The notes beneath the pieces were generated by a model, which did not search any database, was not told the DNA's origin, and saw only the letters and a list, made by a program, of their open reading frames with translations. The position numbers and the translations under genes were made by a program. 21,400 bases of DNA from a virus, in IMG/VR virus record IMGVR_UViG_3300042477_000209, positions 1-21,400 of that record; one strand, 5' to 3'. This document shows, piece by piece, positions 1,721-21,104 of this stretch (position 1 is the first letter of the stretch; the number at the start of each line of letters is the position of its first letter).

Positions 1721-3580
1721 CTACCAGTTGCTGACGAAGCCACTAGCAGCCACGGGTGCCGGCGACTGCTTCCTTGATCTTAGCGGTGCCTTCTTACCTT
1801 CTTCCATCTGCTGCCGCAACTGCTCCCACATCGTTGCCTGATTCATGCGCCGGCTGTAAATCAACAGCGCCGCATAGCCATACACCGCACAATCCAGCGC
1901 TTCATTTCGATCACCCGACTTCTTCACCCACTCCCTGATCGGAAATCCTCGGTGATACCGCAGTGCCTGCCGTTCGCTGGTCAACTGCCGGAAGTATTCC
2001 TGATCAGCAGCCATCCCGAAGTTCAAGCTGCCGCCCGCTTCGTTATGTCGCAATCTGCCAAACAGCGTCGTCTTGATCGTGTCAGTCCCGAGCTGGTACA
2101 GCGTCACGCCTTTCTTCAGCACCTTCCCGCGCCAGTTCACGTCCACCTTGTTCCCCTTGCCCACCGCCGGACTGTTGCGCCGGCTGCTGCCCTTGATGGC
2201 CACCACCCCCTGCCGCACGCGCTCACGCACATAGTTGTACACCTCATGCGTACAGTGGCCGCCCGAGTCGATCGCCATCTGCGCGATCTTCAACTCCTTC
2301 CCGCAAGCTGTCGACCAGCCGGTGGCCAGCACATGATCCAACTGCTTCCACACCTCGAGCTGGGTCGGGTCGCCCATCAGCTCCTGATGCCACACCAGCC
2401 AGCCGGTCTCGCCCTCGCCCCATCCCCACACACTCACCGCCAGTCGGTTGTCCTGCACGTCCACCCCGGCCGTCAGCAGCACCACCCCATCGGGGCATGT
2501 GCCCGGCTCATACGCCAGCCGCTTGGTCATCAGGCCTTCAGCGTTCACCGCCGCCGCATAGTCCTCCTCCCATGTCTCCGCCAACCGGGTGTTGACGAAC
2601 GCCTTCAGCGCTGGACCGTCACCCTTCGCGCGCAGGAAGTCATCAACCAACTGCTCCCAACTGCACCATCCCAGCGGGCTATACAGACCCGACAGATGAA
2701 AGCCAGCCGTCTTGCCATCGCTTGGTGCCGTCGCGCGCCACTCACCAGCGCCCAGCATCCGCGGTTTATGCACCTCCTCAAATCGCTCGCCGCATTTCTC
2801 GCACTCATACCTCGCCGTTTCCGGTCGCCGCTCGTCCCACTTCAACCTTGACCACTGCAGCCATTGCATCTCCCCACAACACGGGCACGGCACATAGAAC
2901 CGCCGCTGGTCGCTGCGCTCATATTCCGCCTCGATCCGGCTAAAGTCCTTCACCGTCGGCGTGCTGGTCAGCAGAATCTTCCGCCGCGCGAACGTGGTCG
3001 TCCGCCGCTCTGCCAGAGCCACCGGATCGCCTTCGCCATCCACATCGCTCGGGAACGCATCGATCTCATCAGCGAACAGATACCGGCACGGCGCAGATCG
3101 CAACCCCGTCGCGCTGTTGGCTCCGGTCAACAGCAGGATCCCGCCGAGGTACTCCTTGGCGAACATCGTGTTCCCCGAGTCCCGACTCCTGGCTGGTGCA
3201 ATCTTCTGCGCCAGGCAAGGCGTCTCATTGATCAAACTCTCCAGCCGCTGCTTGCTCAACCGCTTCGCCATCTCCACCGTTGGCTGCACGCACAACATCG
3301 GACCGGGCGCATGGTCGATCACATAGCCCAGCCAGTTGCTGCCGGCCTCCGTCTTGCCCGTCTGCGCCGCGAACATCATCACCACCCGCTGCACCGGACT
3401 GCTGCTGCTTAAGCAGTCCATCGGCTCCCGCAGGTAAGGAGTCCTTGCCGTCCGCCACGGTCCAGGCTCCGCCGATGCCTTGCTGCTCAGCCGCCGATAG
3501 CGGTCCGACCACTGGCTAACCGTCAGCGGCTCTTCAGGCCGTAACCCCTCCATGAAGCCAGCGCGCCATGGGTTAACCAT
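1721..3580 (-). CDS. Terminase large subunit, lambda GpA family
   Basis: This is the DNA-packaging motor and nuclease. With the start at ATG 3580 it has 619 residues. The ATPase half has a Walker A-like AAQTGKT at residues 71-77 and a Walker B CRYLFADEID around 165-174. A zinc-ribbon insertion follows, with Cys pairs near 232/235 and 260/263. The C-terminal nuclease half shows the acidic motifs of the GpA family: AGVDVQ, AIDSGGH and NEALDCAVYGYAAL. I chose the start at 3580 rather than the longest frame at 3604 because GGAG lies seven bases before it and because it overlaps the small-terminase stop by eight bases. Length and domain order are normal for the family. It acts with the small subunit upstream and docks on the portal encoded downstream. 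Confidence 0.95.
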   Translation of the reverse strand: MVNPWRAGFMEGLRPEEPLTVSQWSDRYRRLSSKASAEPGPWRTARTPYLREPMDCLSSSSPVQRVVMMFAAQTGKTEAGSNWLGYVIDHAPGPMLCVQPTVEMAKRLSKQRLESLINETPCLAQKIAPARSRDSGNTMFAKEYLGGILLLTGANSATGLRSAPCRYLFADEIDAFPSDVDGEGDPVALAERRTTTFARRKILLTSTPTVKDFSRIEAEYERSDQRRFYVPCPCCGEMQWLQWSRLKWDERRPETARYECEKCGERFEEVHKPRMLGAGEWRATAPSDGKTAGFHLSGLYSPLGWCSWEQLVDDFLRAKGDGPALKAFVNTRLAETWEEDYAAAVNAEGLMTKRLAYEPGTCPDGVVLLTAGVDVQDNRLAVSVWGWGEGETGWLVWHQELMGDPTQLEVWKQLDHVLATGWSTACGKELKIAQMAIDSGGHCTHEVYNYVRERVRQGVVAIKGSSRRNSPAVGKGNKVDVNWRGKVLKKGVTLYQLGTDTIKTTLFGRLRHNEAGGSLNFGMAADQEYFRQLTSERQALRYHRGFPIREWVKKSGDRNEALDCAVYGYAALLIYSRRMNQATMWEQLRQQMEEGKKAPLRSRKQSPAPVAASGFVSNW

Positions 3581-4106
3581 CAGCCAACTCCACCAGCGCC
3601 GCACGGTGCTCCTCCGTCAGCACCTGATGGATCGCCGCTGGATCCGTCTCGCCAGCAAGCTGGTGCGATAGCCGATCAGCCAAGTTCGCCAGCGCCTCAC
3701 GCACGCTCCGCCCCATCGCGAACGCTTCCTTCTTCACATCCACCGCAGGCACCAGCTCGCGCCGCTTCAGATCCACCTCCAACTTCGCTAGTTCCGCCTG
3801 GTAGTGCTCACGTCGCGCGCGGCTTTCATTCAGCTCCGGGATCTCATCATCAGGCAACGCAGCCAACCGCTGTCGCAACTCCCGCGGGTTAGCTGGCCGC
3901 GGCTCCACTGGGTCAGGTTCATCCACCTTCGCGTTGTTGTTCTTCAGCGTGTTCTTCCGCCATAGCTCCAGTGCAAGATCACGATCGAGCCAGCGCTTGC
4001 CATCTTCCTCGACAACAGCCTCAGCGATTCGGCTTTTGCTTGCGTGAGTCACCGCCGCCTTGGTGCAGCCTTTGATCAGTGCAAACTCCGCAAACGTGAC
4101 CAGCAC
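3573..4106 (-). CDS. Terminase small subunit, Nu1-like
   Basis: The 177-residue product starts at GTG 4106, with AGGAG about 11 bases upstream. Residues 1-45 (VTFAEFALIKGCTKAAVTHA) read as a winged helix-turn-helix of the Nu1/MerR type, used to bind the packaging start site. A charged Pro-rich linker follows, and then a long helical region (RARREHYQAELAKLEVDLKRRE) that in this family carries oligomerisation and contact with the large subunit. The end, LADRLSHQLAGETD, is typical of Nu1-like proteins in prophages. It overlaps the large-terminase start by eight bases, so translational coupling is likely. The noncoding stretch just upstream contains paired GTTAAC boxes that could be its binding or control sites. 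Confidence 0.85.
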   Translation of the reverse strand: MLVTFAEFALIKGCTKAAVTHASKSRIAEAVVEEDGKRWLDRDLALELWRKNTLKNNNAKVDEPDPVEPRPANPRELRQRLAALPDDEIPELNESRARREHYQAELAKLEVDLKRRELVPAVDVKKEAFAMGRSVREALANLADRLSHQLAGETDPAAIHQVLTEEHRAALVELADG

Positions 4107-4311
4107 GCAGTTAACTGCTCCTAGCTTCTGTTAACTGATACTAAACCCCTGTAAACTTCCCCTAGGGGATCTCATTGTAAGAATTACTGAGACCCTTTGC
4201 GCCGCAAGACTTTAGAGCTTTCGCACGCTGGCGCTAGCTCTTCTGCGAGGTGTGAATAGACCCGCAAATCCCTATGCCGGAAGGACCCGTAAAAGGCAGG
4301 GGTGCCCCCCC
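4107..4311. other. Noncoding stretch upstream of terminase genes
   Basis: About 205 bases without a credible gene; the best small frame is 14 codons. It holds two GTTAAC boxes (4110-4115 and 4130-4135), a perfect ten-base palindrome CCCCTAGGGG at 4159-4168, a six-base inverted pair AGAGCT/AGCTCT at 4214-4219 and 4236-4241, and a C8 run at 4305-4312. On the minus strand a TACAAT hexamer (4174-4179) could be a -10 box for the terminase operon, but I see no good -35 for it. This is where a cos or pac site could lie, since in lambda cos is next to Nu1. No cos can be proven from the sequence alone. Confidence 0.4.
4108..4137. repeat. Paired GTTAACTG boxes, 20 bp apart, before small terminase
   Basis: CAGTTAACTG at 4108-4117 is a perfect ten-base palindrome. 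CTGTTAACTG at 4128-4137 repeats nine of its ten bases exactly 20 bases further on, about two helical turns. The pair sits directly upstream of the small-terminase start at 4106 and spans its ribosome-binding region. It could be a repressor operator or a terminase-binding site. The position and phasing are seen; the function is inference. Confidence 0.4.
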
Positions 4312-4313
4312 CT
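4291..4313 (-). terminator. Possible rho-independent terminator after the 4312-5124 gene
   Basis: On the minus strand the stop codon runs into AGGGG, a six-base loop and CCCCT (4298-4313), followed three bases later by TTTT (4291-4294). The stem is only five GC pairs and the T-run is short, so it is a weak candidate. Confidence 0.25.
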
Positions 4314-5124
4314 ACCCATATTTGGCCAGCTCCCGCGACAGGCGTGAAGGGAATATCGAGGCGAACCGGGCGTCGAAGGTGGTGCGCAGGATCGGCTGGA
4401 TGGGGAAACGAGGCTCATAGCGAGGCTGCCTGGTCACATAGAAGACGGTGTGATAGCCCCTGCGTAGGTTGCTGGTGATCGGTCGACCGCGGCCGCCTGG
4501 GTTGCCCTTAGGCGCCTTGCCAACGCGCGCCATGATGCCGTAGTGCCCGCCGATATTGGCGGCGAAGAAGTCACGGCTGGATCGCTTGTTGTTGCTGCGA
4601 GCCGATGCCTTATTCACGTTCTGGCTTGAACCTTGAACGTTCATCCCCCCGAGGCGCGACAGCATCTGCGTGTAGGTGCTGCCAGAGAGGTTGCCATAGC
4701 TGTTCAGCTTCAACGGCGTGACGCCTGTGGGCACGATGAACTGACCAGACCGCAGCACGCCAGCCTGTTGAAGCTGACGCTCTGAAGACTTAGCTGCTCG
4801 ATTGCCACCACGCGCCAACGTCTCGAGATAGCGACCAGCAGGTACGCCACCACCGAAATACTTGAAGCCAACTTCAGCGCTGAGTCGGCGTGGATTGGCG
4901 AACTTCACAAAGGTGCTGTTTAAGGTCCAGGTAGTTGGCTTGTCGATGTAGCGCGGCGTCACCTCACGCAGGTACTGACGGGCATCCTTGGCCGCCTCGG
5001 TCATTGAATCAGCAATCGCCCATGACAACCGTTTGGTCATGGCATCCGTCCAGCGGATGGCTTTGGGCAATGTGCTGGAGAACTCCAGCACCGAGCCCTT
5101 GATGTTTAGGGATAACTCGGCCAT
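4312..5124 (-). CDS. Putative phage virion-associated protein of unknown role
   Basis: This frame begins MAELSLNIKGSV at ATG 5124 and gives 270 residues. A longer frame from 5184 would have to be read through the poly-C tract and I reject it. An early helical region (AIADSMTEAAKDARQYL) is followed by VTPRYIDKPTTWTLNSTF and then AEVGFKYFGGGVPAGRYLE. This pattern, 'PR-[YF]-[IV]-D-[KR]-P-T..T', resembles a family of prophage structural or tail-completion-like proteins that I recall only as hypothetical. The C-terminal half is basic and Gly/Ser/Asn-rich and has no catalytic motif I can name. Its place between the replication genes and terminase is unusual for a tail protein. It is flanked by a C11 run upstream and a C8 run at its stop codon. 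A virion role is inference; alternatives include a DNA-packaging accessory protein. Confidence 0.55.
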   Translation of the reverse strand: MAELSLNIKGSVLEFSSTLPKAIRWTDAMTKRLSWAIADSMTEAAKDARQYLREVTPRYIDKPTTWTLNSTFVKFANPRRLSAEVGFKYFGGGVPAGRYLETLARGGNRAAKSSERQLQQAGVLRSGQFIVPTGVTPLKLNSYGNLSGSTYTQMLSRLGGMNVQGSSQNVNKASARSNNKRSSRDFFAANIGGHYGIMARVGKAPKGNPGGRGRPITSNLRRGYHTVFYVTRQPRYEPRFPIQPILRTTFDARFASIFPSRLSRELAKYG

Positions 5125-5298
5125 GCCCCAAGGATAAGGCGAAAGCCTGTGCCTAACCTGACCCAACCTGACCCCCCCCCCCAAACTTAGGGTATTACCC
5201 CCTCTCTCTCCTCCTATATATACTTTATTACTAAGGTTAGGAGGTTAGTATGTTAGGAGAAAGGAGTCAGGCCGGGCGATTTCGGCTCCTAACCTAAT
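5125..5298. other. Repeat-dense, low-complexity noncoding region; candidate replication origin
   Basis: These 174 bases contain, in order, a tandem ten-base repeat CCTAACCTGA/CCCAACCTGA (5152-5171), a C11 run (5172-5182), an 18-base pyrimidine tract (5198-5215), a TATATATA block (about 5214-5222) and three tandem eight-base units AGGTTAGG/AGGTTAGT/ATGTTAGG (5234-5257). Inverted copies of the same core lie at 5286-5313. Iteron-like repeats beside an AT-rich block, directly next to a primase-helicase gene, are what a phage origin usually looks like. No gene is supported here. Control of the genes on either side is an alternative explanation. Confidence 0.45.
5234..5257 (+). repeat. Three tandem 8-bp units of the AGGTTAGG type
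   Basis: The units are AGGTTAGG (5234-5241), AGGTTAGT (5242-5249) and ATGTTAGG (5250-5257), with a perfect eight-base period. Further copies of the core lie at 5152-5159 and 5288-5295 (inverted), 5304-5311 (one change, direct) and 7385-7392 (direct, just upstream of the primase-helicase start). The primase-helicase gene is therefore bracketed by the motif. Confidence 0.6.
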
Positions 5299-5313
5299 TT
5301 AGGAGGTTGGGAG
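5286..5313. repeat. Inverted repeat / stem-loop at the 3' end of the primase-helicase gene
   Basis: CTCCTAACCT (5286-5295) faces AGGTTGGGAG (5304-5313), pairing nine of ten bases plus a G-T pair around an eight-base loop. It covers the last codons and stop of the minus-strand primase gene. CTCCTAAC (5286-5293) also pairs perfectly with GTTAGGAG at 5252-5259. No T-run follows in the minus direction, so it is not a classic terminator. Confidence 0.45.
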
Positions 5314-7341
5314 TCTGTACGCCCATTGGCGCTTACCGCCCGTGCAGTCTCGATACTTGACCCATCCGAGATCCCTGAGAATCGCTGAGACCTGCATCTG
5401 ATCTGCCCTGGTTTGGCGCTCGAGTGGTTTCTCGATCGCGTTGCTCAACAGTTCCTCAGAAGTAAGTGGGGCAATGGATCGACGGTTGGCCAGGTAGGTC
5501 TCGACGGCGGCCTGCCAAGGGTTGGAGACCAGATAGGTTTCGTTCTCGGTTTCGACCTGTCGTTCCATTTCACGGGGGAGATGGTTGGCGTCGCCATTGC
5601 GGTAGGCGGCGACGGCAGCCGACCAAATGGCATCACGCTCAAGCAGGAGACCATCCACTGCGATATGTGGTGCTGCGAGCACGGGGATGACCCAGAAGCG
5701 ACGGTTGCCGGTGTCATCCACCAAGAAGCCGCTGTCGCGGTTGGTGGAGCCGACGATGATGCAGCGGCGTGGGAAGTCCTCGGTGGCCTTGCCGTAGGGC
5801 ACGCGGAAGGTATCGGTTTGCTGCGAGAGGAAGGCCTTCACTTGGCCTGCGTGGCGACGACCAGTAAGGAAATCCAGTTCGCCATACTCCATGATCCAGG
5901 AGCGGTGGAGCACCATTAGGTCGTCCTTACTGGACACGTCGCGGAGAGCATCAGAGAAGAAGGCACCGCCGAGATTGCGCCAGAAGGTGGACTTGCCACA
6001 GCCTTGGGGTCCCATGAGCACGCAGGCTGAGTCGTGTTTAGCCCCTGGCTCATAAACGCGGCGCACTGCTGCAATGAGAGTGCAGCGGAGCATGGCGTCG
6101 TACAGAGTGCCGGGTTGATCGTCTGGGCGTAGGTACGCCGTAGCTAGATGATCGATGGGCACAGGCTGAACTTCTTCTGCAACGCGATCGAGGTATGCAC
6201 GGACTGGATCGTATTGATTCTCTCGAGCCACATAGACGACAGCATCAGCTGCCAGCTCTTTCGAAACCTTGACGCCAGCGAGTGCTAGTTCAAGGTAGTG
6301 ATGCTCCAAATTGTGAAGCGCTTTGCCGTCGAGTTCGATGGCTTGTGTATAGATGTTGTACCTGAGCCGATCACCTTGTTGCTGACGGATCAAGGCAAGC
6401 AATTCATCGACTTCGAGCTTGATTGCTTTAGATCCAGCGGTCTCAAAAGCTGCGGCCTTGGGATGATCGCTACCGAGTGCGGACTTGATTGCATTGACGG
6501 CAACTTGACGAGGCGAGATACCACCAGCTAGGTGGTAGAGAGTGCCGAGGCCAATGCCGCCAGAATCGGACTTAAAAGTCGACCATTTGTGTTCGCACTC
6601 GCCGGCCTTGAATTTGCCGGAGCCAGCAGACCATTGAATCCAATCCTTAAGGAGCGAATCATCACCGACGCTATGAAGCGCCATTCCAACCTTGACCCAT
6701 TCGTCGTAGTCATCCGCGAGATTGGATGGGATGCGATCGAGGTAGGTACGAGCGCGATCGGTATCTTCAACCGGATTGGGTACATGAATGAGTTGGGGTG
6801 GTTCTAATGTGCGCTGCATTTGCTGCAGCAGCACAGATGGCGCTTCTGCGAGGGGCAGATCTGATGGTGAGCGATCCTTAAGCCAGCGATAGGAGCCAGT
6901 CATCGGGTGCTTGCCGAGGACTACGGATTGGCAGCCAGTCCAGCGGAGTTCAAGCTGTTCACCCTTGATTGAAGATTTGAGTTTGGTGGTTTTGATCTGA
7001 TCCCAGAAGCCGCGAGGCACGGAGTAGATGATCTGCAGGCGACCATCACGGCCGGAGGTGACTGCCCACGATTTGGGGAGATCACGAAGCGAGGTGCCGA
7101 GGGATTCGAGAACTTCGGAAGCGCCGAGGCCATCGTGATCGACGAATAGCAGACCGCCTGATGGTGGACCTGCGAGAACGCCAACGGCGACGGCACGGCC
7201 TGCGTGCAGTTCAACCTCCAGTTGGCGCTTGCTCAGGGGGTTCTTCTGCCACTCGGGCTGATAGGGGCGTTTGTCGTTCCCGACTGCGACGAGCGCCCAT
7301 GAGTCAGGGATGCCTGTGAGTTGATCGATGATTGCGGCCAC
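5299..7341 (-). CDS. Bifunctional PrimPol / PriCT-2 / VapE-type primase-helicase
   Basis: The 680-residue replication protein starts at GTG 7341. Residues about 10-175 form an archaeo-eukaryotic PrimPol domain, with the metal-binding LLFVDHDG at 64-71 and a SGRDGRLQIIYS strand at 96-107. Residues about 193-272 look like a PriCT-2 domain (RARTYLDRIPS, DEWVKVGMALHS, KWSTFKS). The C-terminal part is a VirE/VapE-family P-loop ATPase: Walker A GPQGCGKST at 444-452, Walker B SWIMEYGELD at 481-490, the sensor-like GSTNRDSGFL at 531-540 and the arginine-containing GNRRFW at 545-550. It would prime and unwind phage DNA. It is the last gene of the helicase-nuclease-primase operon, 54 bases after the nuclease. 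Both ends are flanked by AGGTTAGG motifs, which fits an origin-associated initiator, though this is inference. Its coding sequence looks somewhat more AT-rich than its neighbours. Confidence 0.9.
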   Translation of the reverse strand: MAAIIDQLTGIPDSWALVAVGNDKRPYQPEWQKNPLSKRQLEVELHAGRAVAVGVLAGPPSGGLLFVDHDGLGASEVLESLGTSLRDLPKSWAVTSGRDGRLQIIYSVPRGFWDQIKTTKLKSSIKGEQLELRWTGCQSVVLGKHPMTGSYRWLKDRSPSDLPLAEAPSVLLQQMQRTLEPPQLIHVPNPVEDTDRARTYLDRIPSNLADDYDEWVKVGMALHSVGDDSLLKDWIQWSAGSGKFKAGECEHKWSTFKSDSGGIGLGTLYHLAGGISPRQVAVNAIKSALGSDHPKAAAFETAGSKAIKLEVDELLALIRQQQGDRLRYNIYTQAIELDGKALHNLEHHYLELALAGVKVSKELAADAVVYVARENQYDPVRAYLDRVAEEVQPVPIDHLATAYLRPDDQPGTLYDAMLRCTLIAAVRRVYEPGAKHDSACVLMGPQGCGKSTFWRNLGGAFFSDALRDVSSKDDLMVLHRSWIMEYGELDFLTGRRHAGQVKAFLSQQTDTFRVPYGKATEDFPRRCIIVGSTNRDSGFLVDDTGNRRFWVIPVLAAPHIAVDGLLLERDAIWSAAVAAYRNGDANHLPREMERQVETENETYLVSNPWQAAVETYLANRRSIAPLTSEELLSNAIEKPLERQTRADQMQVSAILRDLGWVKYRDCTGGKRQWAYRLPTS

Positions 7342-7395
7342 TTGGCTCTGATACGTAGCCGAAGAAGTATGACCGAAGGACGGGAGGTTAGGAAG

Positions 7396-18998: not shown

Positions 18999-21104
18999 CT
19001 AGCTCAGGCGATAAGACACAAAGGTGTTACTCGCTGTGCGCCGTGAAGCAAAACGTCCAGATGATCCGTTTGCTACTGTGCTGGATCCCACGATGGTATG
19101 CCCTGTGTCGGTGCCGATGGTGCAAGTGTCGGATCCGGTGTTGATAATTGACCATTCAAATGTCAAGTTGGTGGTAAAACCGATAAACCCCCCTTGCATC
19201 AGTGTTCCGTTCGGCAGTGTCAAGGTATTTGCGGAGCCCGTGTACTGGATAATCTTGGTTTTAAGTTCTGCAACTGTTAATGTCGCAGCACCGCTCTTGG
19301 TTGTTGGTGCTGGTTGAGCATAGCAAACAATTTGATCATTAGTAATGCGTAGTGCTTCAGTTGGTGACGCAGCTCCATCTGCGGTAACGAAAAACGACAA
19401 TCTACCTGGCATATCATCAGCGCCAGGGGTGCCATCAACGAAGCCCTGTATGCGTGCCCCTTCGACAAATTCGGTCCCGTCCGAGCCTTGAAAACTAAGG
19501 GCGCCAAGCTGATCGCTTTCGGCCACCACTGTGACACCGCCTACTGACGATGACCGATGTTTTGCAAAAATGTGGTACGGACCAGCAGCGTTTGCTGAAA
19601 GACCGTAAATCTGTGCAGTATAGCGGCCAACCTCGCTATTTGCTGCTTCAACTTGAAACAACCCGGAAGTTGAGCCATTTAAAAAGTTGCTACGCGCAGT
19701 AGACGTGCCAACTAAGAGCCTGCCTGAGGAGTCAATGCGGGCGTGCTCACTAGGACCATTTCTAAACACGTGAGCGCCCAAAGCAGAGCTAAAGTTCTGA
19801 TTTTTGTAAATTAAGTCATACGTAGTCGTATCTTTTATGATTGAACCAGTTCGGGCATTTGCGCTATTTGTACCACCTATTGTGATACCAACAAATTCGC
19901 CAGAAGCCGAGTCGTTTCCGTTGCTTACATGCAACGCATGGCCAGGGCTAGTAGTGCCAATCCCTACGCGGCCTGTGGAGCCGTCAATCCGCATATACTC
20001 AACTGCATCAGCGGCTGCTGTTCCTGATTGGTGGCCAAAAAATCCAAGTCCAACAACATCATTGTCGGTTGTACCTTGAATTGCCGCTATTGCAGCACGC
20101 CCAGTACCACCAACGCCGAACGAAACTGCACCGCCAAACAGACCGCTGCCACCTGCTGTTGCTTGTAGGTCGATACCAGCAAGTGCTCTACCAGAGTTCT
20201 GAACAACGTAAGCAGAACTTCCAGACAAAGAAAGCAGTGAGCTAGGGCTACTAGTCCCCAGACCTAAGAGGCCAGCGGAGGTTAGGCGCATCCGCTCATT
20301 GGCTCCAGTACCAAAAAGTAGAGGTGTCGCTCCAGTCGTATTAATGAATGAGTAGCCCGTTGCGTTTGTAACTCGAAACGTTTCGGCTCCGCCTTGCATC
20401 ATGGACAGGATGGCCCCATCCGCTCCGTTTATGGTTAATCCGCCGTAGCCAGCATTATTGACAGGACTCGCAGCACCAACTCCAACATTCCCATTCGCAT
20501 CAACAAACAACCGCCCAGTACCACTAGTTGAGATGGCTACTTGATCGGCGCCGGGAGAATAAATACCAGTATTTGCATCGCCGGTGAAGGTCAGCGTGGG
20601 TGCAGCAGCAGAACCGAGCGGATAGCTAAAACGCTCAGAACTGGTCCACGCATCGGTGGAATCAACCCAGTTGATGGTTTTATCGGTCGTACCTTTTAGC
20701 GTGATGCCGCCACCGTCTGCGGTTACATCGGTAGGGGTAGTTACATCGCCAAGGATAATATTTTTGTCTTCAATAACAAGGTTGGTGGTGTTGATATTGG
20801 TGGTCGTACCGTTAACAGTCAGGTCGCCTGCAATCGTTACCGCGCCAGCAGAATCAATCAGCAGACGCTGCGTGCCGCCGGTGGTCACCGCAACCTGATC
20901 GGCGCCGGGGGAATAGATGCCGGTGTTGGGGTCGCCGTCAAAGGAAATAGCCGGAGCTGCCGCCGTACCAAGGCTGGCGTTCTTCATCACGTTGGCGATA
21001 CTGACCTTTTTGGTCACGTCGCTGGTAACGTCAACGATTGGCAGCACATCCGTATTGACCGGATCTGTGTAAGCCGTCAGGTCAGTGATCTTGGTGGTAG
21101 CCAT
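18999..21104 (-). CDS. Tail-fibre / receptor-binding structural protein with internal repeats
   Basis: A 701-residue protein from ATG 21104, with GGAG eight bases upstream. It starts MATTKITDLTAYTDP and has two copies of a repeat of about 43 residues (near 47-89 and 164-207) built on GTAAAPAISFDGDPNTGIYSPGAD-like sequence, cited here in part as NTGIYSPGADQVA. Between them is the TNLVIEDKNIILGD segment seen in cyanophage tail fibres. The middle has many Ser/Thr/Gly-rich turns and 'vGiGttsP' units, typical of trimeric beta-helical fibres. The C-terminus (LKTKIIQYTGSANTLTLPNG onward) looks like a folded tip domain. The DNA from about 19000 to 20600 is visibly more AT-rich than its surroundings, suggesting module exchange. 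Confidence 0.85.
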   Translation of the reverse strand: MATTKITDLTAYTDPVNTDVLPIVDVTSDVTKKVSIANVMKNASLGTAAAPAISFDGDPNTGIYSPGADQVAVTTGGTQRLLIDSAGAVTIAGDLTVNGTTTNINTTNLVIEDKNIILGDVTTPTDVTADGGGITLKGTTDKTINWVDSTDAWTSSERFSYPLGSAAAPTLTFTGDANTGIYSPGADQVAISTSGTGRLFVDANGNVGVGAASPVNNAGYGGLTINGADGAILSMMQGGAETFRVTNATGYSFINTTGATPLLFGTGANERMRLTSAGLLGLGTSSPSSLLSLSGSSAYVVQNSGRALAGIDLQATAGGSGLFGGAVSFGVGGTGRAAIAAIQGTTDNDVVGLGFFGHQSGTAAADAVEYMRIDGSTGRVGIGTTSPGHALHVSNGNDSASGEFVGITIGGTNSANARTGSIIKDTTTYDLIYKNQNFSSALGAHVFRNGPSEHARIDSSGRLLVGTSTARSNFLNGSTSGLFQVEAANSEVGRYTAQIYGLSANAAGPYHIFAKHRSSSVGGVTVVAESDQLGALSFQGSDGTEFVEGARIQGFVDGTPGADDMPGRLSFFVTADGAASPTEALRITNDQIVCYAQPAPTTKSGAATLTVAELKTKIIQYTGSANTLTLPNGTLMQGGFIGFTTNLTFEWSIINTGSDTCTIGTDTGHTIVGSSTVANGSSGRFASRRTASNTFVSYRLS
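20540..20970 (-). repeat. Two diverged copies of a tail-fibre coding repeat
   Basis: The stretches around 20543-20608 and 20899-20962 encode the same NTGIYSPGADQVA core and remain clearly alike at DNA level (shared GATCGGCGCCGGG start, then GAATA and several matching blocks). They are in-frame repeats within one gene. Confidence 0.6.

Follow-up and report, generated by a model that had tools for sequence, protein, structure and literature searches.

The alpha protein of phage P4 unites a primase, a helicase and a repeat-binding domain in one polypeptide, its primase being of the Toprim type, and the rep-ori modules of SaPIs were reportedly described by Ubeda et al. 2007. According to the available text of two papers, the origin of SaPI/PICI rep-ori units lies immediately 3' of the rep gene, with two sets of iterons around an AT-rich region, and the initiator is of the VapE/D5 type with a C-terminal DNA-binding domain (PMC7581432, PMC6092414). 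As far as the available text goes, the isolated C-terminal domain of SCCmec Cch2 binds three repeats directly downstream of the gene (PMC7581432), and pRN1 ORF904 joins a prim-pol, an SF3 helicase and a C-terminal winged helix, the origin 3' of its gene being a stem-loop of about 100 nt without iterons (PMC4234260). The initiator of PLE is assigned to a different family in the part of PMC7145576 available. A search for cyanophage origin of replication together with iteron returned only PLE/ICP1 work, and no described origin for the aquatic cyanophage group considered here was found in the literature searched.

The window analyzed here is an entire IMG/VR virus record of 21,400 bases. An earlier note on this DNA had singled out a repeat cluster at 5125-5313, between the stop codon of a minus-strand primase-helicase gene (5299-7341) and the ATG of the next minus-strand gene (5124), as an origin or a control site for the operons around it. 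We propose that this cluster is very probably where replication of the phage begins, with the phage's own primase-helicase as the protein that binds it, in an arrangement resembling SaPI/PICI rep-ori units and carried by a tailed cyanophage. The origin half of the earlier reading is thus supported, and the control half partly so, through copies at the primase promoter. The module lies directly 3' of the Prim-Pol/PriCT-2/VapE-like gene and reads, on the primase strand, as repeats A1/A2, array B, an AT-rich block, a polypurine tract, a G11 run and array D. Its features and those nearby are the following.

5299..7341, minus strand: initiator candidate, Prim-Pol + PriCT-2 + VapE-like P-loop helicase, 680 aa (Pfam)
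5302..5532, minus strand: C-terminal domain of the initiator candidate, residues 604-680, predicted winged helix (AF2; wing at about residues 661-676)
5141..5307, minus strand: origin core in primase orientation (profile-HMM match, nhmmer E=1e-32, sole match in the record; the window is in the training set)
5304..5311, plus strand: repeat A1, AGGTTGGG, within the 3' end of the primase gene (same place in relatives)
5288..5295, minus strand: repeat A2 (CCTAACCT on the plus strand), forming an inverted pair with A1 over the stop codon (relatives compared)
5234..5257, plus strand: repeat array B, three tandem 8-bp units (sequence, relatives)
5215..5239, no strand: AT-rich candidate unwinding element, 84% AT, overlapping the edge of array B (AT scan)
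5198..5214, plus strand: polypyrimidine tract, polypurine on the primase strand (purine block conserved in the core profile)
5172..5182, plus strand: C11 run (close relatives retain the G-run, others do not)
5152..5171, minus strand: repeat array D, two decamers (CCTAACCTGA CCCAACCTGA on the plus strand), 10 bp apart, facing B
7385..7392, plus strand: repeat U, copy at the primase promoter (one intact unit in the window, a tandem pair in many relatives)
7366..7371, minus strand: -10-like CATACT adjoining repeat U (read by eye)
4312..5124, minus strand: next gene, ATG at 5124 (TATCCTTGGGGCATG at 5136-5122 resembles a leaderless -10)

The elements listed in the earlier note were largely found where it had placed them: the three tandem units AGGTTAGG/AGGTTAGT/ATGTTAGG at 5234-5257, the decamers CCTAACCTGA/CCCAACCTGA at 5152-5171, and the TATATATA block, the pyrimidine tract and the C11 run. 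As to the inverted copies it had named, the one at 5288-5295 is confirmed, whereas the one at 5304-5311 is oriented like the 5234 array; the copies inverted relative to that array are those at 5152, 5162 and 5288. The further copy that it had reported at 7385-7392 is also present. Another exact AGGTTAGG, which it had overlooked, lies at 20279-20286 within a long, unrelated ORF on the minus strand (18999-21104), well away from the origin, and is probably due to chance.

As in SaPI/PICI units, insofar as the available text describes them (PMC7581432, PMC6092414), the candidate origin is found 3' of the initiator gene (149 of 156 loci), two arrays, B and D, surround an AT-rich block, the initiator is VapE-like by sequence and its C-terminal part is a predicted DNA-binding domain. 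This domain may set iteron specificity here: it co-varies strongly with the repeats, and one natural swap is seen. Judged from its predicted elements, the cyanophage module is structurally a unit of the SaPI/PICI rep-ori kind. It differs from what is described for the satellites in belonging to tailed phages with terminase, tail-like and lysozyme genes, in having repeats also at the initiator's promoter, in a core that occurs in both orientations and in GC-rich repeats accompanied by a purine tract. The terminase-like, tail-like and lysozyme genes, as well as the existence of S-LBS1, a complete relative with portal and capsid, speak against the window phage being a helper-dependent PICI satellite. 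Cch2 offers a similar arrangement, with repeats directly downstream of the gene and a C-terminal domain as the reader (here predicted), but in the available text it has a separate primase-polymerase, only three repeats and a staphylococcal cassette as its setting (PMC7581432). The likeness extends to pRN1 as covered by the available part of PMC4234260, where ORF904 has the same protein domains and an origin 3' of its gene. P4 alpha/ori is similar in having primase, helicase and repeat-binding domain (here predicted) in one protein. Unlike in pRN1, no large stem-loop follows the gene here, and a pRN1-like stem-loop origin was rejected (DNA fold z -0.77 and -1.19).

The gap of 189 bp, out of 21,400, holds 7 of the 16 AGGTTAGG-type octamers of the window (at most one mismatch, both strands). 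Its inverted-iteron score was reached by none of 40 dinucleotide shuffles and none of 99 other equal-length windows of the record, and chance clustering of the repeats is ruled out by the octamer count together with these scores. A cruder best-7-mer score gave 11 in the window against a maximum of 9 in 20 shuffles; since it beats its shuffles in just 51 of 77 loci, single-locus statistics are weaker than comparative ones. Of 21,375 windows, 3 are at least as AT-rich as the richest 25-mer of the gap (84% AT, about 5215-5239), that 25-mer being one of them. An Rfam search gave no RNA-element match, a tRNA was rejected as the identity of the cluster, and neither a sigma-70-type promoter consensus nor a terminator-like site was found in the gap.

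The comparison with relatives relied on scans of viral contigs, from which we took the best 80 of 112 for the window's clade, fragments included, and the best 80 of 285 for the S-LBS1 type. Loci whose stop codon is not in the contig were dropped from the first set (L021, L059, L061, L062, L076). The second set consists of 77 of L106-L185 plus S-LBS1, L103 and L104, and leaves out L139, L156 and L165, whose matches end early, and L105, matched to residues 4-272 only. By eye, the 3' regions inspected from the first set (best 80 of 112) show the same order of elements, barring contig-end cuts. A core profile trained on dereplicated window-clade loci and run on all loci (threshold E<0.01) matches 76 of 76 window-clade sequences, roughly half of which had served for training, and 73 of the 80 untrained loci of the second set, the S-LBS1 type being represented by the best 80 of 285 (misses: L120, L122, L131, L154, L178, L180, L181). 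All these matches, in 149 of 156 loci, fall at -70 to +300 of the primase stop, and 12 long records contain one match with E<0.01 each; in 29 of 37 loci the AT maximum lies at +57 to +71 past the stop. In 77 sequences (first set, window and S-LBS1), exact copies of the best repeat word amount to 12.8 per kb in the 3' region, a value biased by the choice of the word there, to 7.2 per kb in the 90 nt before the gene, which is unbiased because this stretch was not used in choosing, and to 0.17 per kb elsewhere. The earlier note had made its reading depend on the repeats being conserved beside homologous primase genes and on the motif not being equally common elsewhere; both hold in these loci, and the octamers of the window also bear out the second.

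The core is not tied to one orientation. Among the 73 matched untrained loci, 44 have it on the primase strand and 29 inverted, and at least 9 changes of its orientation are needed on a tree built with FastTree from the protein minus its 77 C-terminal residues (73 labelled rows, 77-locus set). All 18 inverted members of this tree set have a pyrimidine instead of a purine tract, which by a simple measure is also found in 9 of the 55 non-inverted members.

The isolated Synechococcus phage S-LBS1 (MG271909) encodes an initiator 49% identical to that of the window and has the same module at 34344-34517, its repeats being GGTTAGGCA/GGTTGGGCA and present in more copies. In the available text of the S-LBS1 paper (PMC6157547), the word 'repeat' is absent and no S-LBS1 origin is mentioned. 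The last 100 bases of this record (L102) recur 254 bp earlier, inside the origin (34288-34641), which could mean that the origin is partly duplicated or else that a circular assembly was opened at this point, and at 34260-34290 two repeats form GAGGTTGGGCAGCTGCCTAACCTC, followed by T7, as an intrinsic terminator made of origin-type repeats. Three relatives were found among MAG contigs and they do not fix the host; L103 and L104, in contigs binned as Planctomycetota and as a beta proteobacterium, are close relatives with the same origin core, and these are probably misbinned phage contigs. The 73-kb contig G004 (that of L078) encodes two primase-helicases of the family, at 3145-5172 and 49535-51595, 56% and 68% identical to the query.

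Pfam matches of the candidate initiator are to VapE-like (2.2e-64), PriCT_2 (7e-23) and Prim-Pol (PF09250, 2.1e-17), and phmmer aligns it with 7pds ('Similar to D. nodosus vapE') at 1.9e-27; by sequence, it is a predicted self-loading helicase of the VapE/D5 type. No Toprim match was found in it at E 0.001 (Pfam), and the Prim-Pol domain sets it apart from P4 alpha. An AF2 model of its last 91 residues gives a winged helix (H-H-H-E-E, pLDDT 81.0) with a hairpin at residues 661-676; the full-length model is poor (pLDDT 54). Structural matches to the C-terminal model are mostly winged-helix proteins, the best of them generic, with Z at most 6.3. They include PriRep1 with dsDNA (7pds) at Z 5.5, tied with unrelated proteins, so that this match shows the fold and not kinship. 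The C-terminal domain alone gave no relevant match by sequence to solved structures or Pfam.

If the C-terminal domain reads the repeats, the two are expected to change in step. The repeat sequence indeed switches many times across related phages, its types including GGTTGGGA, GGTAGGCAA, GGTGGGGCA, GGTAGGAAA, GGTTGGAAC, GGTTGGGACA and AGATAGGACGG. For Mantel tests we used 38 loci after 3% dereplication, without L064 (partial) and loci with short 3' ends, and then without L052 (too few pattern matches), leaving 37. The repeat profile follows the C-terminal domain (604-680) with r 0.681 (partial 0.673), as compared with 0.190 for Prim-Pol, 0.030 for PriCT-2, 0.248 for the middle part and 0.264 for VapE. 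In a wider set (n=77) the C-terminal r is 0.377 (partial 0.354) and that of the next domain 0.252, and a repeated-6-mer measure gives a weaker co-variation (r 0.21) than the repeat profile. When 37 nearest pairs, all disjoint, are compared, the C-terminal domain has a rho of 0.77 and the wing one of 0.72, against 0.49 (residues 1-603), 0.40 (Prim-Pol) and 0.38 (VapE). The 30 best-covarying columns include 19 of the 61 variable C-terminal columns (439 columns in all), among them residues 665, 666, 667, 670, 671 and 672. The arms also agree within a genome, the observed value being reached in 12/5000, 5/5000 and 1/5000 permutations, counts that are not independent because the phages are related.

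The C-terminal codons border directly on the module; we therefore took as a control the upstream repeats, which lie at a distance of 2 kb, next to the Prim-Pol codons. Their highest partial correlation is 0.46 with the C-terminal domain versus 0.20 with Prim-Pol, without L041, L056 and L069; with L056 and L069, which were removed for lack of an upstream pair, the values were 0.45 and 0.33. Prim-Pol, which adjoins U, also correlates with these repeats (r 0.42-0.49), and part of the 3' correlation could likewise be linkage, a share that the upstream test lowers and does not remove. The non-repeat spacer beside the C-terminal codons reaches an r of 0.31 only. One pair of loci, L124 and L117, illustrates the joint change: per 40-column block their proteins are 0.90-1.00 identical up to about residue 640 and then about 0.5 identical over the last 80 residues or so, their repeats differ (GGTTGGCAG vs GGTAGGGCA), their cores are oppositely oriented, and DNA identity returns about 290 nt past the stop. 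The predicted DNA-binding domain and the candidate origin have changed together here, the rest of the gene being kept.

The composition of the genome changes at the same place. Detrended cumulative GC skew has its minimum at most 2 kb from the core in 9 of 12 long records, whichever strand codes (elsewhere in G007, G010 and G011), the circular distances presuming circular permutation of linear records. Skew is lower to the left than to the right of the core in 11 of the 12 and passes from negative to positive in 9; as these records are related and their ends uncertain, no P value is attached. The window shows a rise from -0.153 to +0.104 across the core with both flanks minus-strand coded; a change of skew at the cluster is what the earlier note had asked for.

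Copies of the repeat, single or as a tandem pair, also lie at the primase promoter in most window-clade relatives. An upstream copy with at most one mismatch is found in 60 of 77 sequences (first set, window and S-LBS1), and a strict tandem pair in 23 of 36 loci, with a YANNNT hexamer 5-8 nt after it; the window has a single intact unit and is not scored as a pair. In the S-LBS1 type, U is mostly absent (by eye, 33 loci). This spacing puts the pair at the usual -35 position, which suggests that the primase promoter is controlled by a repeat-binding protein. At the other end of the module, the A of the ATG of the next gene is preceded in 22 of 37 loci, at a distance of exactly 12 nt, by a TANNNT hexamer within TACCCTTGGNNNATG; the version in the window (5122-5136, TATCCTTGGGGCATG) is not among these exact ones. 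The hexamer is kept although the next gene differs between relatives and looks like a promoter for a leaderless mRNA.

Beyond this group, we scored 13 other phages beside their VapE gene, using an inverted-array score against 40 shuffles (Ln-9 5' of the gene, as it has no 3' gap). Arrays beat 40/40 shuffles in five: Pseudomonas U5, where a small ORF separates gene and array, Acutalibacter, Listeria LWP01, Paenibacillus Jacinda and S. mitis MissE2. Two are borderline, S. thermophilus CHPC1282 (3/40 shuffles) and H1-Guo (1/40, a low-complexity AT word). No significant inverted-repeat score was obtained for the remaining six, Pseudomonas PPpW-3, Bacteroides BU241P1, Phocaeicola BV200P1, Nonlabens P12024S, Leuconostoc Ln-9 and Caulobacter BL94; the last scores 0, yet inspection by eye shows TGTAACCACC / GGTGG..GGTTACA repeats surrounding an AT/purine block.

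One could assume that the repeats are an operator only, bound by a regulator (the primase or another phage protein) of the primase operon and the next gene, with replication starting elsewhere. The promoter repeats with their -10-like hexamer at a near-constant distance and the -10-like motif ahead of the next gene would agree with this, but a core that occurs either way round with respect to the genes beside it, an AT-rich block between facing arrays, a skew minimum at the module and the similar arrays that follow VapE genes in other phages regardless of the next gene make it quite unlikely. A packaging (pac/cos) site might be suspected from the small-terminase-like gene (3573-4106) about 1 kb away and from the small-terminase genes near the module in S-LBS1, U5 and BL94. 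We consider it very improbable, given that the repeats track the primase C-terminus and that in the Acutalibacter, Listeria, Paenibacillus and S. mitis phages the arrays follow VapE while the terminase is kilobases off or outside the stretch.

It is just as hard to see the module as a terminator of the primase gene or an element of its mRNA, or as a stem-loop origin like that of pRN1: the A1/A2 inverted pair does span the stop codon, and the S-LBS1 repeats do build a stem followed by T7, but the fold energy is unexceptional by the z values given above, no terminator-like site was found in the gap and 29 of 73 cores are inverted. On the other hand, the origin could be real and the co-variation a matter of hitch-hiking, the C-terminal codons and the repeats recombining together while another protein reads the repeats. 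The exchange between L124 and L117 as a single block is what this would produce. We nevertheless hold it to be unlikely, because the upstream repeats 2 kb away follow the C-terminal domain too, the adjacent non-repeat spacer follows it less, and the covarying columns are concentrated in the wing, with 19 of the 30 highest-ranking ones in the C-terminal domain.

We thus favor an origin bound by the primase-helicase itself, and infer its mode of action as follows. The protein would bind the GGTTAGG/GGTTGGG repeats by its C-terminal winged helix and assemble at the facing arrays B and D, where it could melt the AT-rich block between them. The VapE-like helicase would then be loaded and the Prim-Pol domain would prime bidirectional synthesis. 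The primase-helicase very likely also binds the repeat at its own promoter and may adjust its own supply, in whichever direction.

For this widespread group of cyanophages from aquatic settings, the results provide a candidate origin, a candidate initiator and a candidate specificity domain; several phages of Pseudomonas and of Bacillota have similar arrays after their VapE genes. The many joint switches of repeat and domain make the question of how an initiator changes its origin directly testable. A tentative hypothesis, which we regard as possible but still doubtful, is that the last 80 or so initiator codons and the adjacent origin of about 300 bp form an exchangeable specificity cassette, which aquatic phages would swap, flipping the core, so that co-resident relatives or satellites could not fire or hijack each other's origins. 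If this were true, the dozens of natural wing/repeat pairs would constitute a readable recognition code for orthogonal replicons.
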